Positions 1-6,710 of a DNA stretch of 64,000 nt are shown here, one piece after another; position 1 is the stretch's first letter; each line of letters begins with the position of its first letter. The notes under the pieces are model-generated. The model did not search any database and was not told the DNA's origin. It saw nothing but the letters and a program-made list of their open reading frames with translations. Both the position numbers and the translations under genes were made by a program. Source of the DNA: Bordetella sp. H567 (GTDB lineage Bacteria; Pseudomonadota; Gammaproteobacteria; Burkholderiales; Burkholderiaceae_B); assembly GCF_001704295.1 (NCBI RefSeq), contig NZ_CP012334.1, positions 1,624,084 to 1,688,083 of the forward strand. Reading direction: 5' to 3'.

Positions 1-585
1 GTGGAAGGCGAGGTAAAGACGCCGGGGCCGCTGCCCATCACTGATGTGCCCATGACCTTGCCGCAAGCCATCAACACGGCGGGCGGGGCGCTTGCTACGG
101 CGGATCGCAGCCGCGTCTACGTGACGCGTAACGGTCAAACGACACGCGTGGATTTGCCGATGCTTCAGCAGGCGGGGATCGATCCGACCGCCATCCTGCT
201 GCAGCCCAACGACATTGTTCGCGTCGTTCCGCGCGACGAGAACAAGGTCTATGTAATGGGAGAAGTAACGCAGCCCCTGGCGTTGACCATGCACGACGGC
301 GTACTGACGTTGGGCGATGCCTTGGGCGAGACCGGAGGTCCCAGTCAACTGACCAGCGAGCCCGCGGACATCTATGTCGTCCGCGCCCTGCCCAACGCAA
401 CACCGGAGGTATTCCGCCTGAACAGTGCATCGCCCCAGGCCATGGCAGTCGCCCAGAAGTTCCCGCTGCAGTCCAAGGACGTGGTCTTTGTCGACGCGGG
501 CAACCTGGTGCGGTGGAATCGCTTTATCTCGCTCTTGTTCCCCAGCGCGCAGACGGTCCAGACCGTGGACTCGGTGCGCAAATAG
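1..585 (+). CDS. Polysaccharide export outer-membrane protein (Wza-type), 3' part only
   Basis: This is the C-terminal 194 residues of a Wza/polysaccharide-export protein; the reading frame is open at the window edge, so the N-terminal signal, lipobox and poly-export domain lie upstream. Two SLBB-like segments can be seen, at about residues 1-65 and 80-150, with the pattern of a short sandwich followed by QPNDIVRV and LQSKDVVFV, the usual ends of SLBB domains. Wza-family proteins form the outer-membrane channel that carries exopolysaccharide or capsule out of the cell, working with the Wzc kinase encoded next. The GTG at position 1 is probably not the real start. The role is from family knowledge; which polysaccharide is exported cannot be told from this window. 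Confidence 0.85.
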   Translation: MEGEVKTPGPLPITDVPMTLPQAINTAGGALATADRSRVYVTRNGQTTRVDLPMLQQAGIDPTAILLQPNDIVRVVPRDENKVYVMGEVTQPLALTMHDGVLTLGDALGETGGPSQLTSEPADIYVVRALPNATPEVFRLNSASPQAMAVAQKFPLQSKDVVFVDAGNLVRWNRFISLLFPSAQTVQTVDSVRK

Positions 586-682
586 CAATCTCTTCCGCAC
601 GCGGCCCGCATGGTGTTGCGATGCGGGCCACGACGTGCCGGCCGTTGCCGGCGCGATGTTTCTTACTACTAGCGAGTCGACA

Positions 683-2941
683 ATGAAGCAGCCTCCTCTC
701 CAGCTGGAATACGCCAATGCCGGGGGTACACCCCCGGACACCCCGATGATGTCGTACGTGGACGTATTGCTGGCGAACCGTTTCATGATCATCGTCGTGA
801 CCCTGCTCGCGACGTTAGTCGGAGTGGCTTACTACCTCATCAGGCCACCCGTGTACCAGTCCGACATCGCGGTGCAGGTGGAAGAGGAGTTGCCGACGGG
901 ACAACGGACCAGCATGCTGGGCGACGTCTCGTCCATCTTCGACATCAAACAGGCGGCATCGGGCGAAATGGAAATCCTGCGTTCGCGCCTGGTGGTGGGG
1001 CATGCCGTGGACTATTACCAGCTCTATGTCCACGCCACGCCGGACTACTTTCCGGTCATCGGCCGCTGGCTGGCCAAGCGGCGTGAGAGCTTCGCGCTGC
1101 CGACCGCCGTCACCGACGCGATTCCAGGCGGCTGGGCCTGGGGTGGCGAGCGCATCCAGCTCAATCGCATCGATGTGCCGGACGACCTGATCGGCAAGAA
1201 GCTGCGCGTGGTGGCGCTGGGCGCCGGCGCCTACGAGCTGGTGGACCCGGTGCACGACCGGCGTTTCGAAGGCCGTGTCGGGCAGCTGGAGCGCTTTGAA
1301 GTGCCCGGCGGCGCGATCGAAATGCAGATCGACACGCTGCATGCCCGGCCGGAGACCAGCTTCACCGTGGTGCGCGAGTCGCGTCTGGAAGCGATCGAAT
1401 CGCTGCAGACGCGCATGGGCATCTTCGAACGGGGACGCCAGTCCAACGTCATCGGCGTGACGCTGCAGGGCCAGGATCCGGTGCTGACGGCGGCCGTGCT
1501 GAACGAAATCGGCCAGGAGTATGTGCGGCAGAACACCAACCGCAAAACCGCCCAGGCGGAAAAATCCCTGGCTTTCCTGGACCAGCAGCTGCCGGTGCTG
1601 AAAAAGCAGCTGGAAGAATCGGAGACCCGCTACAACGCCCTGCGCAATTCACGCGGGACCATCGACCTGACCGAGGAAGCCAAGCTGATCCTGGGCCAAT
1701 CGGTGGAAACGCAGAACAAGATCTTCGAACTGAAGGCCCGGCGTCAGGAACTGGTCACGCGCTTCGCGGCCTCGCATCCTAGCATCGCCGCCATCGACCG
1801 GCAGATCGCTTCGCTGACCGGCGACATGAACAAGCTGAACAGCAAGATCCGCGAACTCCCCGACCTGGAACAGGACGTCGTGCGCCTGACTCGCGACGTC
1901 AAGGTCAACACCGACTTGTACACGGGCCTGCTGAACAACGCGCAGCAACTGCGCATGATCCGCGCGGGCAAGGTCGGCAATGTCCGGGTGGTCGATACGG
2001 CCGTCGCGGCGGAAAAGCCGCTGAGCCCGAAGGCGCCTATCGCGCTGGGCGTGGCAGCGCTGGCCGGCCTGGTGCTTGGCGTGGTCGCGGCCTTCCTGCG
2101 CAACGCACTGTTCGGCGGACTGACGGACCCGGACGAGATCGAGCGCTATACCGGCCTGCCCGTGCTGGCGACGGTGCCCTACAGCGATCTGCAGGACCGG
2201 TTGTGGCGCCGCGCGCGCCGCAAGAATGCGCGCATCCCGGCACTGCTGGCGCAGAGCAACGGCAGTACGCCGCCCATTGAAAGCCTGCGCAGTTTCCGCA
2301 CCGTGCTGCAGGTGGCCATGCGCGATTCTTCCAACAACATCGTCGTGTTCACGGGGCCGCTGGCCGGCGTGGGCAAGTCCTTCCTGTCGGCCAACTTCGC
2401 CTTCATCCAGGCGGCGGTCGGTAAGCGGGTGCTGCTGATCGACGCCGACTTCCGCCGCGGTACGCTGAACCGCTACTTCGCCACGCCGGCCGAGAACGGC
2501 CTGTTCGAGGTGCTGGCGGGCACGGTGCCGCTGGAGGCGGTCACCAAGCGCAACATCATGAACGGCGTGGACTTCATCTCCACCGGCAGGGTCACCTTCG
2601 ATCCTTCCGAACTGCTGGCTTCCGAAGCCTTCGGCGAGTGCCTGCATGCGCTGGCGGCCGACTACGACATCGTGATCGTCGATACGGCGCCGGTGCTGTC
2701 CTCGTCCGACGCCGCGGTGGTGGGTGCGCATGCCGCGGCGGTCATGGTGGTGGTGCGGTCCGGCATGAACACGGTGGGCGAGATCCGGGAAACCAACAAG
2801 CGCCTGCAGCAGGCCGGCGCGCCGGTCGCGGGCGTGGTCTTCAATGGCCTGAAGCTGCAGTCCGAAGGCTGGGGCTATCGCTCCAAGTATGGTCCCTATC
2901 GATATTCGCGCGCGTCGTATTACGGCGAAAACCAGCCCTAG
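683..2941 (+). CDS. Wzc-type polysaccharide copolymerase / bacterial tyrosine autokinase
   Basis: A 752-residue inner-membrane protein that controls polysaccharide chain length and export. An N-terminal Wzz domain begins with a membrane segment at about residues 28-56, followed by a long periplasmic coiled-coil region and a second membrane segment at about 450-476. The cytoplasmic BY-kinase domain follows, with Walker A GPLAGVGKS near 557-565, Walker A' VLLIDADFR near 583 and Walker B IVIVDTAP near 663. The tail carries six tyrosines in its last 25 residues (YRSKYGPYRYSRASYYGE), the autophosphorylated cluster of this family. The start at 683 was chosen because the protein begins as family members do; no clear ribosome site precedes it, and an in-frame ATG at 656 is possible. 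It lies 97 bp after the export gene and 15 bp before the mutase homologue. Confidence 0.92.
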   Translation: MKQPPLQLEYANAGGTPPDTPMMSYVDVLLANRFMIIVVTLLATLVGVAYYLIRPPVYQSDIAVQVEEELPTGQRTSMLGDVSSIFDIKQAASGEMEILRSRLVVGHAVDYYQLYVHATPDYFPVIGRWLAKRRESFALPTAVTDAIPGGWAWGGERIQLNRIDVPDDLIGKKLRVVALGAGAYELVDPVHDRRFEGRVGQLERFEVPGGAIEMQIDTLHARPETSFTVVRESRLEAIESLQTRMGIFERGRQSNVIGVTLQGQDPVLTAAVLNEIGQEYVRQNTNRKTAQAEKSLAFLDQQLPVLKKQLEESETRYNALRNSRGTIDLTEEAKLILGQSVETQNKIFELKARRQELVTRFAASHPSIAAIDRQIASLTGDMNKLNSKIRELPDLEQDVVRLTRDVKVNTDLYTGLLNNAQQLRMIRAGKVGNVRVVDTAVAAEKPLSPKAPIALGVAALAGLVLGVVAAFLRNALFGGLTDPDEIERYTGLPVLATVPYSDLQDRLWRRARRKNARIPALLAQSNGSTPPIESLRSFRTVLQVAMRDSSNNIVVFTGPLAGVGKSFLSANFAFIQAAVGKRVLLIDADFRRGTLNRYFATPAENGLFEVLAGTVPLEAVTKRNIMNGVDFISTGRVTFDPSELLASEAFGECLHALAADYDIVIVDTAPVLSSSDAAVVGAHAAAVMVVVRSGMNTVGEIRETNKRLQQAGAPVAGVVFNGLKLQSEGWGYRSKYGPYRYSRASYYGENQP

Positions 2942-2956
2942 CCCATTGGAGACGTC

Positions 2957-4360
2957 ATGGATTCCCTGGGTGTTCCGGAATCGTCCGGATTCCCGCCGCA
3001 CGTCTTCCGCGCCGATGAGATACGTGGCCGCGTCGGCCACGACATCAACGCCCACTTCGCGCACGCGTTGGGGGTGGCGCTGGGGGGCTGGGCGGCCGAG
3101 CAGGGCCGGCGCGCCGTGGTCATCGGCAAGGACGCGCGGCTAAGCAGTGTCGAATTGGCTGCAGCGCTGCAGGCCGGCGTGCGCGAGTCCGGGATGGCGG
3201 TGATCGATATCGGCATGGCGACGACGCCGCTGACATGGTTCGCCGCGCGCCTGACGGATACGGGCACGGCGGTATCGGTGACCGGTGGCCACGACGACGA
3301 CGGCTACAACGGCTTCAAGCTCATGCTGGACGGCGATGTCGTGGGCCATGCGGGCTTGCACGCCCTGCGCGGGCGCATGCAGGCGCAGGCCAGCAGCGTT
3401 GCGCGTCCCGGTGCACGGACGCTGATCAGCGCCGCGCCCTGCTACGTGTCCAGGCTGGTCAGTGATATCCGCCTGGAACGCTCGCTGAAAGTGGCGCTGG
3501 ACTGCGGCCATGGCGTGGCCGGCAGCCTGGCACCCGATGCGCTGCGCGAACTGGGCTGCGAGGTCACCGAACTGGCCTGCGACATGACGGGTGCATACCC
3601 CGACGACGAGCCCAGGCCCGGCGAAGCGCGCTACCTGGCCGACCTCGCGGCGCGCCTGCGCTACAACGGCTGCGAGCTGGCGCTGTCGATCACCGGCGAC
3701 GGCGATCGCGTGACGGTGATCAGCAAGTCGGGAGCGCGCGTGTGCGCGGACCGCCTGCTGATCCTCTTCGCCCGCGACATCCTGGGCGCGGCTCAGGGCG
3801 GGGCGGTCGTCCACGACGTGAAAAGCAGCCGCAACCTCGCGCGCGAGATCCGCGCGCTGCGCGGCGCGTCGGTGGTCAGCCGGGGCGGCGATGCGCATAT
3901 CGGCGAAAAGATGCGCGAGACGGGGGCGCTGCTGGGCGGCGAAACGGGCGGCGGCATCCGCTTCAAGGACCGCTGGCTTGGCCATGGCGACGGCCTGTAC
4001 ACCGCGGCACGATTGTTGGAGCTGCTGTCGCGGCATCGAGATGCCTCGGCGGTGCTTGATGCCTTGCCGCAGTCCTGCGCCACGCCGGAGCTGCGCGTGG
4101 ACATGGCCGACGGCGAACAGCACCGCCTGGTCGAGGCGCTGCGCACGCGGGGCCGCTTCATGGGCGCGCGGGAAATCATCCACCTGGACGGCGTGCGCGT
4201 CGAATACGAGGACGGTTTTGGCCTGGCGCGCGCGGCCGCGGCGCAGCCCGCCGTCATGCTGCGGTTCGAGGGCGACAACGGTATCGCACTGTCGCGCATC
4301 CAGGAGGACTTCCGCCGACAGCTGCTTAGCGTGGCACCAGGATTGCGACTGCCTTTTTAA
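2957..4360 (+). CDS. Phosphomannomutase/phosphoglucomutase homologue with altered active-site motifs
   Basis: A 467-residue, full-length member of the alpha-D-phosphohexomutase family (ManB/AlgC type), which normally converts sugar-6-phosphate to sugar-1-phosphate for nucleotide-sugar synthesis. The four-domain fold is recognisable, including YNGFK at 117-121 and a family-like end VMLRFEGDN...IQEDFRRQLL. Every catalytic loop differs from the family pattern. The phosphoserine loop TGSHNP is TGGHDD (109-114), so the Ser is Gly111. The metal loop DGDGDR is TGDGDR (246-251). The sugar loop GEMSGH is GETGGG (328-333). The phosphate loop RASNTTP is RAAAAQP (425-431). The KTGH motif reads RGGD (309-312). 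The frame is intact and the protein is not truncated, so it looks maintained rather than decaying. It lies between the Wzc kinase and galE, probably in one transcript. Normal mutase activity is doubtful. Confidence 0.85.
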   Translation: MDSLGVPESSGFPPHVFRADEIRGRVGHDINAHFAHALGVALGGWAAEQGRRAVVIGKDARLSSVELAAALQAGVRESGMAVIDIGMATTPLTWFAARLTDTGTAVSVTGGHDDDGYNGFKLMLDGDVVGHAGLHALRGRMQAQASSVARPGARTLISAAPCYVSRLVSDIRLERSLKVALDCGHGVAGSLAPDALRELGCEVTELACDMTGAYPDDEPRPGEARYLADLAARLRYNGCELALSITGDGDRVTVISKSGARVCADRLLILFARDILGAAQGGAVVHDVKSSRNLAREIRALRGASVVSRGGDAHIGEKMRETGALLGGETGGGIRFKDRWLGHGDGLYTAARLLELLSRHRDASAVLDALPQSCATPELRVDMADGEQHRLVEALRTRGRFMGAREIIHLDGVRVEYEDGFGLARAAAAQPAVMLRFEGDNGIALSRIQEDFRRQLLSVAPGLRLPF

Positions 4361-4382
4361 CGTGTAGGGCAACGGAGCGGCA

Positions 4383-5420
4383 ATGACGACGCTATTGGTC
4401 ACCGGCGGGGCCGGCTACATCGGCAGCCATACCTTGATAGAGCTTATCGGGGCGGGATACCGCCCCATCATCATCGACAACCTGTGCAATGGCAGCCGTG
4501 CCGCCGTGCGCCGCGTCGAGCGCATCGCCGGTGCGCGGATCTCGTTCGTGGAAGGCGATATCCGCTCCGCGTCGCTGCTCGACACGCTGTTTTCGCTGCA
4601 GAAACGACAAGGGCATCCCATCGAGTGCGTGTTGCATCTGGCGGGCGTCAAGGCGGTGGGGGAGTCGGTTCGAGACCCTATCAAGTATTTCGACAACAAT
4701 GTCTCCGGGACGGTGGCGCTGCTGTCGGCGATGCGGGCGCACGGCGTTCGGCGGCTGGTCTTCAGTTCTTCCGCCACCGTGTACGGGGTGCCGCGCTTCC
4801 TGCCGTTCACCGAGGAACATCCGCTTCAGCCGACCAACCCGTATGGACGGTCCAAGTTGATCGTCGAGCAGATGCTGCAGGACGCCTGCGCCGCCGACCC
4901 CGACTTCAGCGCCGTGACCCTGCGCTATTTCAACCCGATTGGCGCGCATCCCAGCGGCTTGATCGGCGAGAATCCGCGCGACGTGCCCAACAACCTGTTC
5001 CCGTACATCACGCAGGTGGCGGTGGGCCGCCAGCCGCACTTGAAGGTCTTCGGCAACGACTACGACACCGAGGACGGCACGGGGGTGCGCGATTACCTTC
5101 ATGTCATGGACCTGGCCGCGGGGCATGTGCGCGCGGTCGATTATGCGCTGCGCCATGCCGGTTTTGTTGCCGTCAACCTGGGGACGGGGAAGGGTACCAG
5201 CGTGATGGAGCTGGTGCGCACTTTCGAGCGCGTCAATGGGCTGCGCATCCCCTGCCGGATCGAAGCCCGGCGCCCTGGGGATGTGGACCGGGTCTGGGCC
5301 GACCCCAGCCTGGCCCGCAGGCTATTGCGTTGGCAGACCTCCCACGGCGTGGAGAGCATGTGCAGGGATGGCTGGCGCTGGCAGCAGTCCAACCCGGAGG
5401 GCTACGGGGCGGTGCAGTGA
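4383..5420 (+). CDS. galE: UDP-glucose 4-epimerase
   Basis: A 345-residue extended short-chain dehydrogenase that interconverts UDP-glucose and UDP-galactose with tightly bound NAD. The N-terminal TGGAGYIGS matches the GxxGxxG dinucleotide loop, SSSATVYG carries the catalytic Ser/Thr, and YGRSK gives the catalytic Tyr and Lys of the YxxxK pair. The substrate region RYFNPIGAHPSG and the later DGTGVRDYLHVMDLA are typical of GalE rather than of dehydratases. Length fits the family (about 338). A GGAG-like ribosome site lies a few bases before the ATG, and only 22 bp separate it from the mutase homologue, so it is likely the last gene of the polysaccharide operon and supplies UDP-Gal for export or for LPS. 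Confidence 0.95.
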   Translation: MTTLLVTGGAGYIGSHTLIELIGAGYRPIIIDNLCNGSRAAVRRVERIAGARISFVEGDIRSASLLDTLFSLQKRQGHPIECVLHLAGVKAVGESVRDPIKYFDNNVSGTVALLSAMRAHGVRRLVFSSSATVYGVPRFLPFTEEHPLQPTNPYGRSKLIVEQMLQDACAADPDFSAVTLRYFNPIGAHPSGLIGENPRDVPNNLFPYITQVAVGRQPHLKVFGNDYDTEDGTGVRDYLHVMDLAAGHVRAVDYALRHAGFVAVNLGTGKGTSVMELVRTFERVNGLRIPCRIEARRPGDVDRVWADPSLARRLLRWQTSHGVESMCRDGWRWQQSNPEGYGAVQ

Positions 5421-5522
5421 CCGTATAACTGGGCACGGCGGTTGCTCTGGGTGAGCACTTACAACACAACATGGCGTCCCTCAGGCCGCCGGTAGCACGA
5501 CACCCCTGAATCGTCGCCCTCC

Positions 5523-6710
5523 ATGAGCTCACAGCCACGCGTGCCGTCCGTCAACACGACGACGGTGTCCGCCGCCGCCCCCACCGTTTCCGTCGCCGGC
5601 GCCGCAGCCGGCGAGACCGCCACGGCGATGCCGCCGCCGCGTGCCTTCGACCGGCGGCACGCGCCCTTGTCCGTCATCGCGGTGCTTGCGGTCGTGTTCG
5701 CCTTGCACCTGGCCAGCGACTTCATCATCCCGCTGGTCATTTCCATCATCCTGTCGTACGCGCTGGATACGCCCGTCACGTTCCTAAACCGCCGCGTTCG
5801 CTTGCCTCGCGCGGTGGCCGCGACCATCGTGGTGGTGGCGCTGCTCGCAGTCGTGGCCTTCGGCATTTCGTCGTTGCGCGGCCAGGTCATGTCCATCGTG
5901 GATAGCCTGCCGCAAACGGCGCAGAAAGTGTCGCGCTCCGTGGCAAGCTTCAATGCCGGCAACGGCTCGGTCCTGGAAAAGCTGCGCGCCGCCGCCAACG
6001 CGGTCAATGCCCCGGAGAAGCCGCGCTCCGATGGCGCACGGGTGGTGGTGACGCGGCCCGCCGACAAGCTGGACGAAATGCTGCTCGCGGGTTCCAAGGG
6101 CATCGCGCAGTTCCTCGGCCAGGCGCTCATGGTGATTTTCCTGGTGTTCTTCCTGCTGCTGTCGGGCGACACCTTCAAGCGCAAATTCGTCCACGTTTGC
6201 GGCCACAACCTGACCGAGAAAAAAATCAGCGTGCACATGCTGGACGAGATCCACCGCTCCATCCGGCTGTACATGATGATGATGGTGGTCACCAATGTCC
6301 TGCTGGGCCTGTTGACCTGGCTCGCCTTCCGCTGGATAGGCCTGCACAACGCCGGTACATGGGCCGTCGTCGCCGGCGCCCTGCACGTGGTCCCCTATTT
6401 CGGCCCGCTGCTGGTCGCCCTGTTCACCGGCGTCGCCGCGGTGGTGCAGTTCGGCGAATTGGGCACCGCGCTGCTGGTGGCCGGGGTGTCGCTGCTGATC
6501 GCGGCCCTGATCGGTTTCGTCATCCAAACCTGGATGACGGGCCGCATCGCCAAGATGAACCCCGTGGCGGTCTTCGTCATCCTGCTGCTGTTCACATGGG
6601 CCTGGGGCCTGTGGGGCACGCTGTTGTCCATTCCCATCGCGGTCATCGTGAAGGTTGTCGCGGACCACGTGGAAGGCTTCCAGGGCGTGGCGGAGTTCCT
6701 GGGCGAATAG
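5523..6710 (+). CDS. AI-2E family transporter (PerM-like permease)
   Basis: A 395-residue integral membrane protein of the UPF0118/AI-2E family. After a polar, Ala/Thr/Pro-rich N-terminus of about 45 residues there are hydrophobic segments near residues 50-90 and 95-120, a soluble loop of roughly 80 residues, and then several more helices. These include VVPYFGPLLVALFTGVAAVV and the C-terminal LLFTWAWGLWGTLLSIPIAV, which contains the family's W-G-x-x-G-xxx-S-x-P signature. Members are linked to export of autoinducer-2 or to Na+/H+ exchange; the true substrate here cannot be told from sequence. The gene stands about 100 bp after galE and is followed by a repeat element. Confidence 0.85.
   Translation: MSSQPRVPSVNTTTVSAAAPTVSVAGAAAGETATAMPPPRAFDRRHAPLSVIAVLAVVFALHLASDFIIPLVISIILSYALDTPVTFLNRRVRLPRAVAATIVVVALLAVVAFGISSLRGQVMSIVDSLPQTAQKVSRSVASFNAGNGSVLEKLRAAANAVNAPEKPRSDGARVVVTRPADKLDEMLLAGSKGIAQFLGQALMVIFLVFFLLLSGDTFKRKFVHVCGHNLTEKKISVHMLDEIHRSIRLYMMMMVVTNVLLGLLTWLAFRWIGLHNAGTWAVVAGALHVVPYFGPLLVALFTGVAAVVQFGELGTALLVAGVSLLIAALIGFVIQTWMTGRIAKMNPVAVFVILLLFTWAWGLWGTLLSIPIAVIVKVVADHVEGFQGVAEFLGE

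Follow-up and report, generated by a model that had tools for sequence, protein, structure and literature searches.

The window, by which we mean the whole analysed stretch of 64,000 nucleotides from Bordetella sp. H567, begins inside wza, and the gene studied here follows shortly after, between wzc and galE. Genes were called with our own script, and some of the starts are approximate.

1..585, plus strand: wza, 3' part (the gene start lies upstream of the window), with SLBB domains and Wza_C just under its cut-off (25.7 versus 25.8 bits)
635..2941, plus strand: wzc, polysaccharide co-polymerase / tyrosine kinase, ending 15 bases upstream of the mutase gene; start codon approximate
2957..4360, plus strand: putative pseudo-phosphohexomutase, locus paralogue of AlgC, 467 aa with an ATG start and an intact frame
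4383..5420, plus strand: galE, UDP-glucose 4-epimerase-like, 22 bases downstream of the mutase gene; Pfam gives the epimerase family only, and galE is our own reading
L056:4367-6024, upstream of the window: two LuxR-type regulator genes

Upstream, the order begins with the two LuxR-type genes, followed by an opposite-strand polysaccharide block (glycosyltransferases, Wzy_C, Polysacc_synt, an epimerase, a GDP-mannose dehydratase, a ManC-type protein, a NUDIX protein and a Bac_transf sugar transferase), after which come wza, wzc, the mutase gene and galE. Although Wzc is present, no member of the Wzb (low-molecular-weight tyrosine phosphatase) family was detected among the 19 locus proteins scanned (window 1-6710 and L056:2132-19147). 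We take the locus to resemble a colanic-acid locus, in which the local mutase normally feeds ManC. The E. coli colanic-acid cluster comprises similar families (Wza, Wzc, Bac_transf, NUDIX, ManC, Gmd, epimerase, flippase and polymerase), but its gene order differs and its local mutase, ManB/CpsG, is catalytic, whereas that of the window is, judging by its sequence, non-catalytic.

The open reading frame at 2957-4360 has a single stop codon, at its end. Pfam PGM_PMM domains I, II and III score above cut-off in its product and domain IV just below (22.4 bits versus 23.1), while the nearest solved structures are Burkholderia thailandensis 3uw2 (phmmer E = 1.7e-112) and P. aeruginosa PMM/PGM 4il8 (E = 5.3e-105). 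AlphaFold gave a mean pLDDT of 89.2 for the 467-residue protein from an alignment of 54 rows; TM-scores of this predicted model, normalised by the query, are 0.92 to 3uw2 and 0.93 to P. aeruginosa PMM/PGM 1k35, and they range from 0.88 to 0.94 over the eight best PDB entries. By descent and predicted fold the product is a full-length homologue of the AlgC-type alpha-D-phosphohexomutases, sharing the four domains of AlgC and 3uw2. Open reading frame, Pfam, phmmer and fold match all agree on the intact homologue that an earlier sequence-only reading had described. It differs from AlgC and 3uw2 in that the phosphoserine, the first metal Asp, His308, Ser327/His329 and Ser423-Asn424-Thr425 are replaced. 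Numbered by alignment to the P. aeruginosa chain 4il8, the replacements are as follows.

3287..3289, plus strand: codon 111, Gly for the phosphoserine (AlgC Ser108), loop TGGHDD
3692..3694, plus strand: codon 246, Thr for the first metal Asp (AlgC Asp242), loop TGDGDR
3881..3892, plus strand: RGGD (309-312) for KTGH, with D312 at the His308 position
3938..3955, plus strand: GETGGG (328-333) for GEMSGH, with G331/G333 at the Ser327/His329 positions
4229..4249, plus strand: RAAAAQP (425-431) for RxSNTTP, with A427-A428-A429 at Ser423-Asn424-Thr425

The residues named in that reading for the five motifs (G111, T246, RGGD, GETGGG, RAAAAQP) are right by this alignment. The protein carries neither the TGSHNP loop with the catalytic serine nor the KTGH, GEMSGH and RxSNTTP loops of an active enzyme, and the DGDGDR metal loop, altered here and read as AGDGDR in G005, is intact in four of the six congeners. 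The loss of all five motifs claimed earlier is thus true of this copy, but not of those four congeners or of G195 and G197, where the serine is kept. Among near-invariant columns (at least 97% invariant in 45 intact rows), 12 of 24 are kept inside the five motif windows versus 87 of 115 elsewhere (Fisher p = 0.023), leaving 28 of 115 lost beyond the motifs. As aligned, the active site is disproportionately affected, though other regions have lost residues too. Still present are R23, H112, R251, K289, E329 and R425, all of which correspond to ligand or catalytic positions in AlgC. For K289, passages in PMC3369874 describe ligand contacts made by the equivalent residue, K285.

Sequencing error or chance can be set aside as the cause of motif loss, since five congeners show the same kind of loss. 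Chance is also unlikely because, among the best 80 of 174 relatives from genome contigs, 77 have the serine and the DGD(G/A)DR loop (one of them, L131, readable only in part) and the remaining three are the same gene in three congeners.

Three members of the family occur in the genome, a single contig of 5.53 Mb: the 2957-4360 gene, an AlgC-type gene and a GlmM-like gene. The locus copy is thus not its sole mutase. The canonical second copy that the sequence-only reading had suggested looking for is the AlgC-type gene, located elsewhere, 47% identical and with intact motifs. The same three matches recur in all six genomes of the genus, with the AlgC-type copy motif-intact in each. Our searches covered 121 genomes, 268 genomes of the family, 13 selected genomes and 15 genomes of genus g36, with tblastn pieces shorter than 150 residues omitted from motif counts. 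Locus-type copies occur in two states, with intact or with decayed motifs. In Achromobacter (g4), two matches at E <= 1e-100 are present in 41 of 43 genomes (the remaining pair are 78% and 57% complete), and every locus copy read (23 in L159-L181 and 14 in L081 and L083-L095, sets that may overlap) carries TGSHNP and DGDGDR, with isolated changes at other places such as WKSGHS in L165. Decayed copies number 14: the six congeners, four of the 15 g36 genomes (G189, G192, G195, G197), and G013, G052, G053 and G015, so that the eight genomes outside the window's genus belong to three other genera. The KTGH histidine and the SNT asparagine are gone in all 14. The catalytic serine is lost in 12, being replaced by Gly in the six congeners, G189, G013 and G052, by Arg in G192 and by Ala in G053 and G015 (alignment-dependent in both). 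Every decayed-copy genome has an intact AlgC-type copy elsewhere, that of G015 in two pieces on two contigs. A GlmM-like phosphohexomutase with intact ISASHNP and DGDADR lies directly 3' of the mutase copies that have decayed furthest, those of G053 and G015 (L038:11028-12413, L271). In G191, a 3.7-Mb genome, the AlgC-type match consists of two pieces with a gap (C1:436731-438105; L189, L198), as if the gene were broken.

In a tree built without the motif columns, all 23 locus rows group in a single clade, apart from the 36 canonical rows (support 100/100); nine of these locus rows are Achromobacter sequences chosen from sets of 25 and 14 that possibly overlap, and the canonical rows were picked from many more. 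The 14 decayed rows lie on one side of a branch in the best tree, with weak support (78/57). Several of them (G053, G015, G189) are long branches, and the grouping of G013/G052 with G053/G015 may be artefactual. Coding Ser108 as kept or lost requires at least two changes, or four if the replacing residues are distinguished. We do not claim several proven independent losses, as with the branch at 78/57 a single early loss of the substrate loops is an equally good reading.

The setting of the gene varies. The order wza-wzc-mutase is common to the six congeners, G189, G013, G052 and Achromobacter G008/G049, and together with the close same-strand spacing between wzc and galE it speaks for a dead mutase serving as scaffold or regulator of the polysaccharide machinery, binding Wzc, ManC or AlgC and tuning sugar-nucleotide supply or export. 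However, five of the 14 decayed copies (G192, G195, G197, G053, G015) lie in genomes where no Wzc reaches E <= 1e-120, a threshold passed by 105 of 268 family genomes, and they are not flanked by a polysaccharide block: the order is LuxR-LuxR-mutase-isomerase-cysE-like in the first three and LuxR-mutase-GlmM-like-LuxR in the other two. Conversely, G198, G047, G266, G261 and G262 have the block and a first-LuxR match but no mutase beside wzc, so the locus can do without its mutase copy. Because of these two sets of genomes, binding to the Wzc kinase, which had been proposed earlier, is not favoured as a general role, and we consider a scaffold of the polysaccharide machinery unlikely.

Pairwise NG86 dN/dS values, obtained with our own script and without codon-bias correction, are given below. 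They range from 0.052 to 0.212 over seven close pairs of decayed copies; a wide pair and an intact Achromobacter pair follow.

G000-G005: locus copy 0.212, AlgC 0.088, scored neighbours 0.038 to 0.209
G001-G002: locus copy 0.176, AlgC 0.080, scored neighbours 0.064 to 0.158
G001-G004: locus copy 0.129, AlgC 0.069, scored neighbours 0.029 to 0.128
G002-G004: locus copy 0.084, AlgC 0.077
G003-G004: locus copy 0.064, AlgC not scored
G195-G197: locus copy 0.204, AlgC 0.083, scored neighbours 0.036 to 0.188
G013-G052: locus copy 0.052, AlgC 0 (identical proteins), scored neighbours 0 to 0.069
G000-G001 (wide pair): locus copy 0.401, AlgC 0.185
G008-G049 (Achromobacter, intact): locus copy 0.119, AlgC 0.151

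The close-pair values point to purifying selection on the decayed copies, weaker than that on AlgC, and none of the 14 matched stretches, across four genera, has an internal stop. With catalytic residues lost and fold and selection kept, the product is very probably a conserved pseudoenzyme, in agreement with the earlier suggestion. Part of the pattern is nevertheless relaxation, since dN/dS exceeds that of the genomes' own AlgC in six of six close-pair comparisons and in the G000-G001 pair; relative to scored neighbours it is at or above the top value in four of five pairs and within the range in one. Deep pairs give higher values in general (0.40 for the mutase in G000-G001, 0.82 for the isomerase in G192-G195). 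These features, the redundancy of the locus copy with AlgC, the long branches, the invariant columns lost beyond the motif windows and the missing mutase in some genomes with the locus are what one would expect of a redundant duplicate under relaxed selection that is slowly being lost. Such decay sits poorly with the low close-pair dN/dS, with the open frames and with a helix at 64-77 that evolves more slowly than in the AlgC copies (see below), and we rate it as somewhat less probable than the scaffold. The sequence-only reading had argued that drift would also blur the other regions; purifying selection agrees with its conclusion, but other regions do evolve faster than in AlgC (75% amino-acid identity for the locus copy versus 91% for the AlgC paralogue in G000-G005). 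A dN/dS well below 1 together with a shift of constraint to other helices is a better argument against drift. What that reading had named as evidence against itself, intact orthologues combined with relaxed selection or stop codons, is seen by half: the Achromobacter copies are intact and constraint is weaker than on AlgC, but the five congener copies have no internal stop and, in close pairs, dN/dS is far from neutral.

Relative site rates were derived from separate trees of the 14 decayed rows and 35 distinct canonical rows. The compared segments were picked post hoc, after earlier results, and the background is 452 equally long windows.

3146..3187, plus strand: helix 64-77 (SVELAAALQAGVRE), slowly evolving among decayed copies, common also to the intact Achromobacter copies; candidate contact surface

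Helix 64-77 evolves about four times more slowly in decayed copies (0.41 versus 1.59 in canonical ones; 11 of 452 windows are as low), and helices 442-459 (0.66 versus 1.69; 19 of 452 as extreme) and 160-170 (0.94 versus 2.02; 25 of 452) shift in the same direction. Loop 208-223 (1.69 versus 0.42; 1 of 452 as high), the phosphate loop (1.52 versus 0.43; 17 of 452), loop 17-27 (1.26 versus 0.27) and the serine loop (1.14 versus 0.35) have become faster; so have the metal (97 of 452), sugar (61 of 452) and KTGH (50 of 452) loops, the shifts of which are not extreme. The cleft has lost constraint, whereas helix 64-77 has gained it, as has the C-terminal helix in most lineages. The latter is unconserved in G195/G197, and its identity to Achromobacter (0.47) is no closer than to canonical copies (0.53). 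For helix 64-77, in contrast, identity is 0.82 between decayed and Achromobacter copies versus 0.52 between decayed copies and canonical AlgCs of the family, which suggests that this helix may be part of a contact surface that existed before catalysis was lost.

The old pocket, on the other hand, is variable: the six congeners differ at 9 of 19 active-site positions, five of their AlgCs at 0 of 19. Motif windows of the six congeners vary as often as the rest of the protein (16 of 33 versus 213 of 418 positions), so the pocket appears to be without special constraint rather than selected to change. This bears on a changed ligand or chemistry, in which R251, K289, E329 and R425 with the remaining Asp pair would make the protein a sugar-phosphate sensor or a weak phosphatase/phosphotransferase. 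Passages in PMC7761743 and PMC9426568 lend that idea some plausibility, the former reporting that the inactive vertebrate PGM5 still binds glucose-1-phosphate and the latter a different reaction in another bacterial phosphohexomutase subfamily. But pocket variability, including that at position 289 (R in G005, E in G001-G004), makes it the least probable of these alternatives.

Two LuxR-type genes accompany the locus mutase. A match to the first is found in all 14 decayed genomes, weakly in G053, and in all 43 Achromobacter genomes, as well as in the five block genomes without mutase beside wzc. The query is unspecific, since 132 of 268 family genomes match it at E <= 1e-12, but every genome that scores above 175 bits has the polysaccharide block or the locus mutase. 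Genomes without the locus reach 155 bits, a range that includes G053 (117 bits, in pieces, with adjacent LuxR genes seen at its locus) and G047 (152 bits, at a contig end); the G015 match has one TGA. In G261 and G262 (L266, L267) the usual place of the mutase, directly after wzc, is taken by a gene related to the first LuxR gene (54% identical). The second LuxR protein aligns over 5-210 of its 226 residues with the response regulator VraR (phmmer E = 1.2e-10) and over 2-207 with NarL, while a Pfam receiver domain was not found in either LuxR protein at E <= 0.5. The position expected to accept the phosphate has no Asp in any of 29 rows, nor in the G003/G004 genes: by the VraR alignment it is Leu in the second LuxR protein, and by our own reading, one residue further on, it is Gly in 27 of 29 rows and in the G003/G004 genes and Ser in G261/G262. 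Both regulators seem incapable of being phosphorylated.

The explanation we prefer is the following. A duplication of an AlgC-type gene would have taken place before the Achromobacter/Bordetella group diversified, in an ancestor of it, and the duplicate would have settled in a locus with two LuxR-type regulators, mostly also with a colanic-acid-like block and in some cases with a duplicate phosphoglucose isomerase. Achromobacter retains the catalytic motifs of this copy. The window's genus, like part of three further genera, has lost the substrate and phosphate loops, together with the serine in 12 of 14 genomes, with fold and frame kept. Mannose-1-phosphate and glucose-1-phosphate are presumably supplied there by the housekeeping AlgC. 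The decayed protein, presumably no longer a mutase, would work through protein contacts on a surface that includes helix 64-77. Either of the two LuxR-type regulators would be its most likely partner, and the protein would modulate the activity of that regulator. Action by contact rather than through a new ligand is the part we lean towards, while a LuxR-type partner is put forward tentatively; these genes may be merely neighbours by descent. Taken as a whole, a bacterial pseudo-phosphohexomutase with a probably regulatory contact role and a LuxR-type protein as its most likely partner has, in our judgement, about an even chance of being correct.

Both elements of a contact-acting pseudo-mutase have precedents. 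GlmM, a working bacterial phosphohexomutase, inhibits the cyclase CdaA through its domain-2 helices (passages in PMC8573169), so regulation by protein contact is possible for this family. GlmM acting on CdaA/DacA likewise regulates another protein by direct binding (PMC8573169 and PMC6368335, in the parts available to us), but it is an active enzyme with a diadenylate cyclase as target, and the likeness to the window protein, which lacks the catalytic motifs, is by analogy only. That a phosphohexomutase fold can persist as a pseudoenzyme is indicated by vertebrate PGM5 (aciculin), described in passages of PMC7761743 as a structural muscle protein and, like the window protein, an inactive paralogue beside an active one that evolution has kept. 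According to the same passages, however, PGM5 keeps the serine, phosphorylated in one structure, and glucose-1-phosphate binding, whereas the window protein is without serine and substrate loops. The latter is of bacterial AlgC-type origin, its best PDB matches being bacterial AlgC-type chains, and our tree was built from locus and canonical AlgC-type rows. Judged by the missing serine and by these matches, the window protein does not belong to the PGM5 family, and we do not suggest that the two share one loss. Another pseudoenzyme of a polysaccharide pathway, though an unrelated protein, is the tyrosine pseudokinase EcpK, which takes part in exopolysaccharide synthesis in Myxococcus (part of PMC12004946). 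In the open-access literature we found no bacterial phosphohexomutase pseudoenzyme in print. The same-place gene, intact in Achromobacter and dead in relatives with helix 64-77 conserved in both, makes it possible to ask, by natural comparison, whether a moonlighting role arose earlier and opened the way to the loss of catalysis. It also follows that a 'phosphomannomutase' annotation in such polysaccharide loci is not evidence for a local supply of mannose-1-phosphate.

The mutase is not the only altered sugar-phosphate enzyme at these loci. In G192, G195 and G197 a phosphoglucose isomerase adjoins the decayed mutase (L268:10828-12399, L269:7537-8976 and L270:8060-9553, respectively); its Pfam scores are 205, 95 and 91 bits versus 448 in Achromobacter, and the GIGGS, SKSFTT and ESLGK motifs are lost with the frame intact. 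In these genomes the locus could conceivably be a signalling module of non-catalytic sugar-metabolism and two-component relics, with the window gene as its polysaccharide-associated form, a reading we regard as doubtful. The neighbouring isomerase has a dN/dS of 0.188 in G195-G197, and an intact-looking isomerase lies next to AlgC in G192 and in G195.
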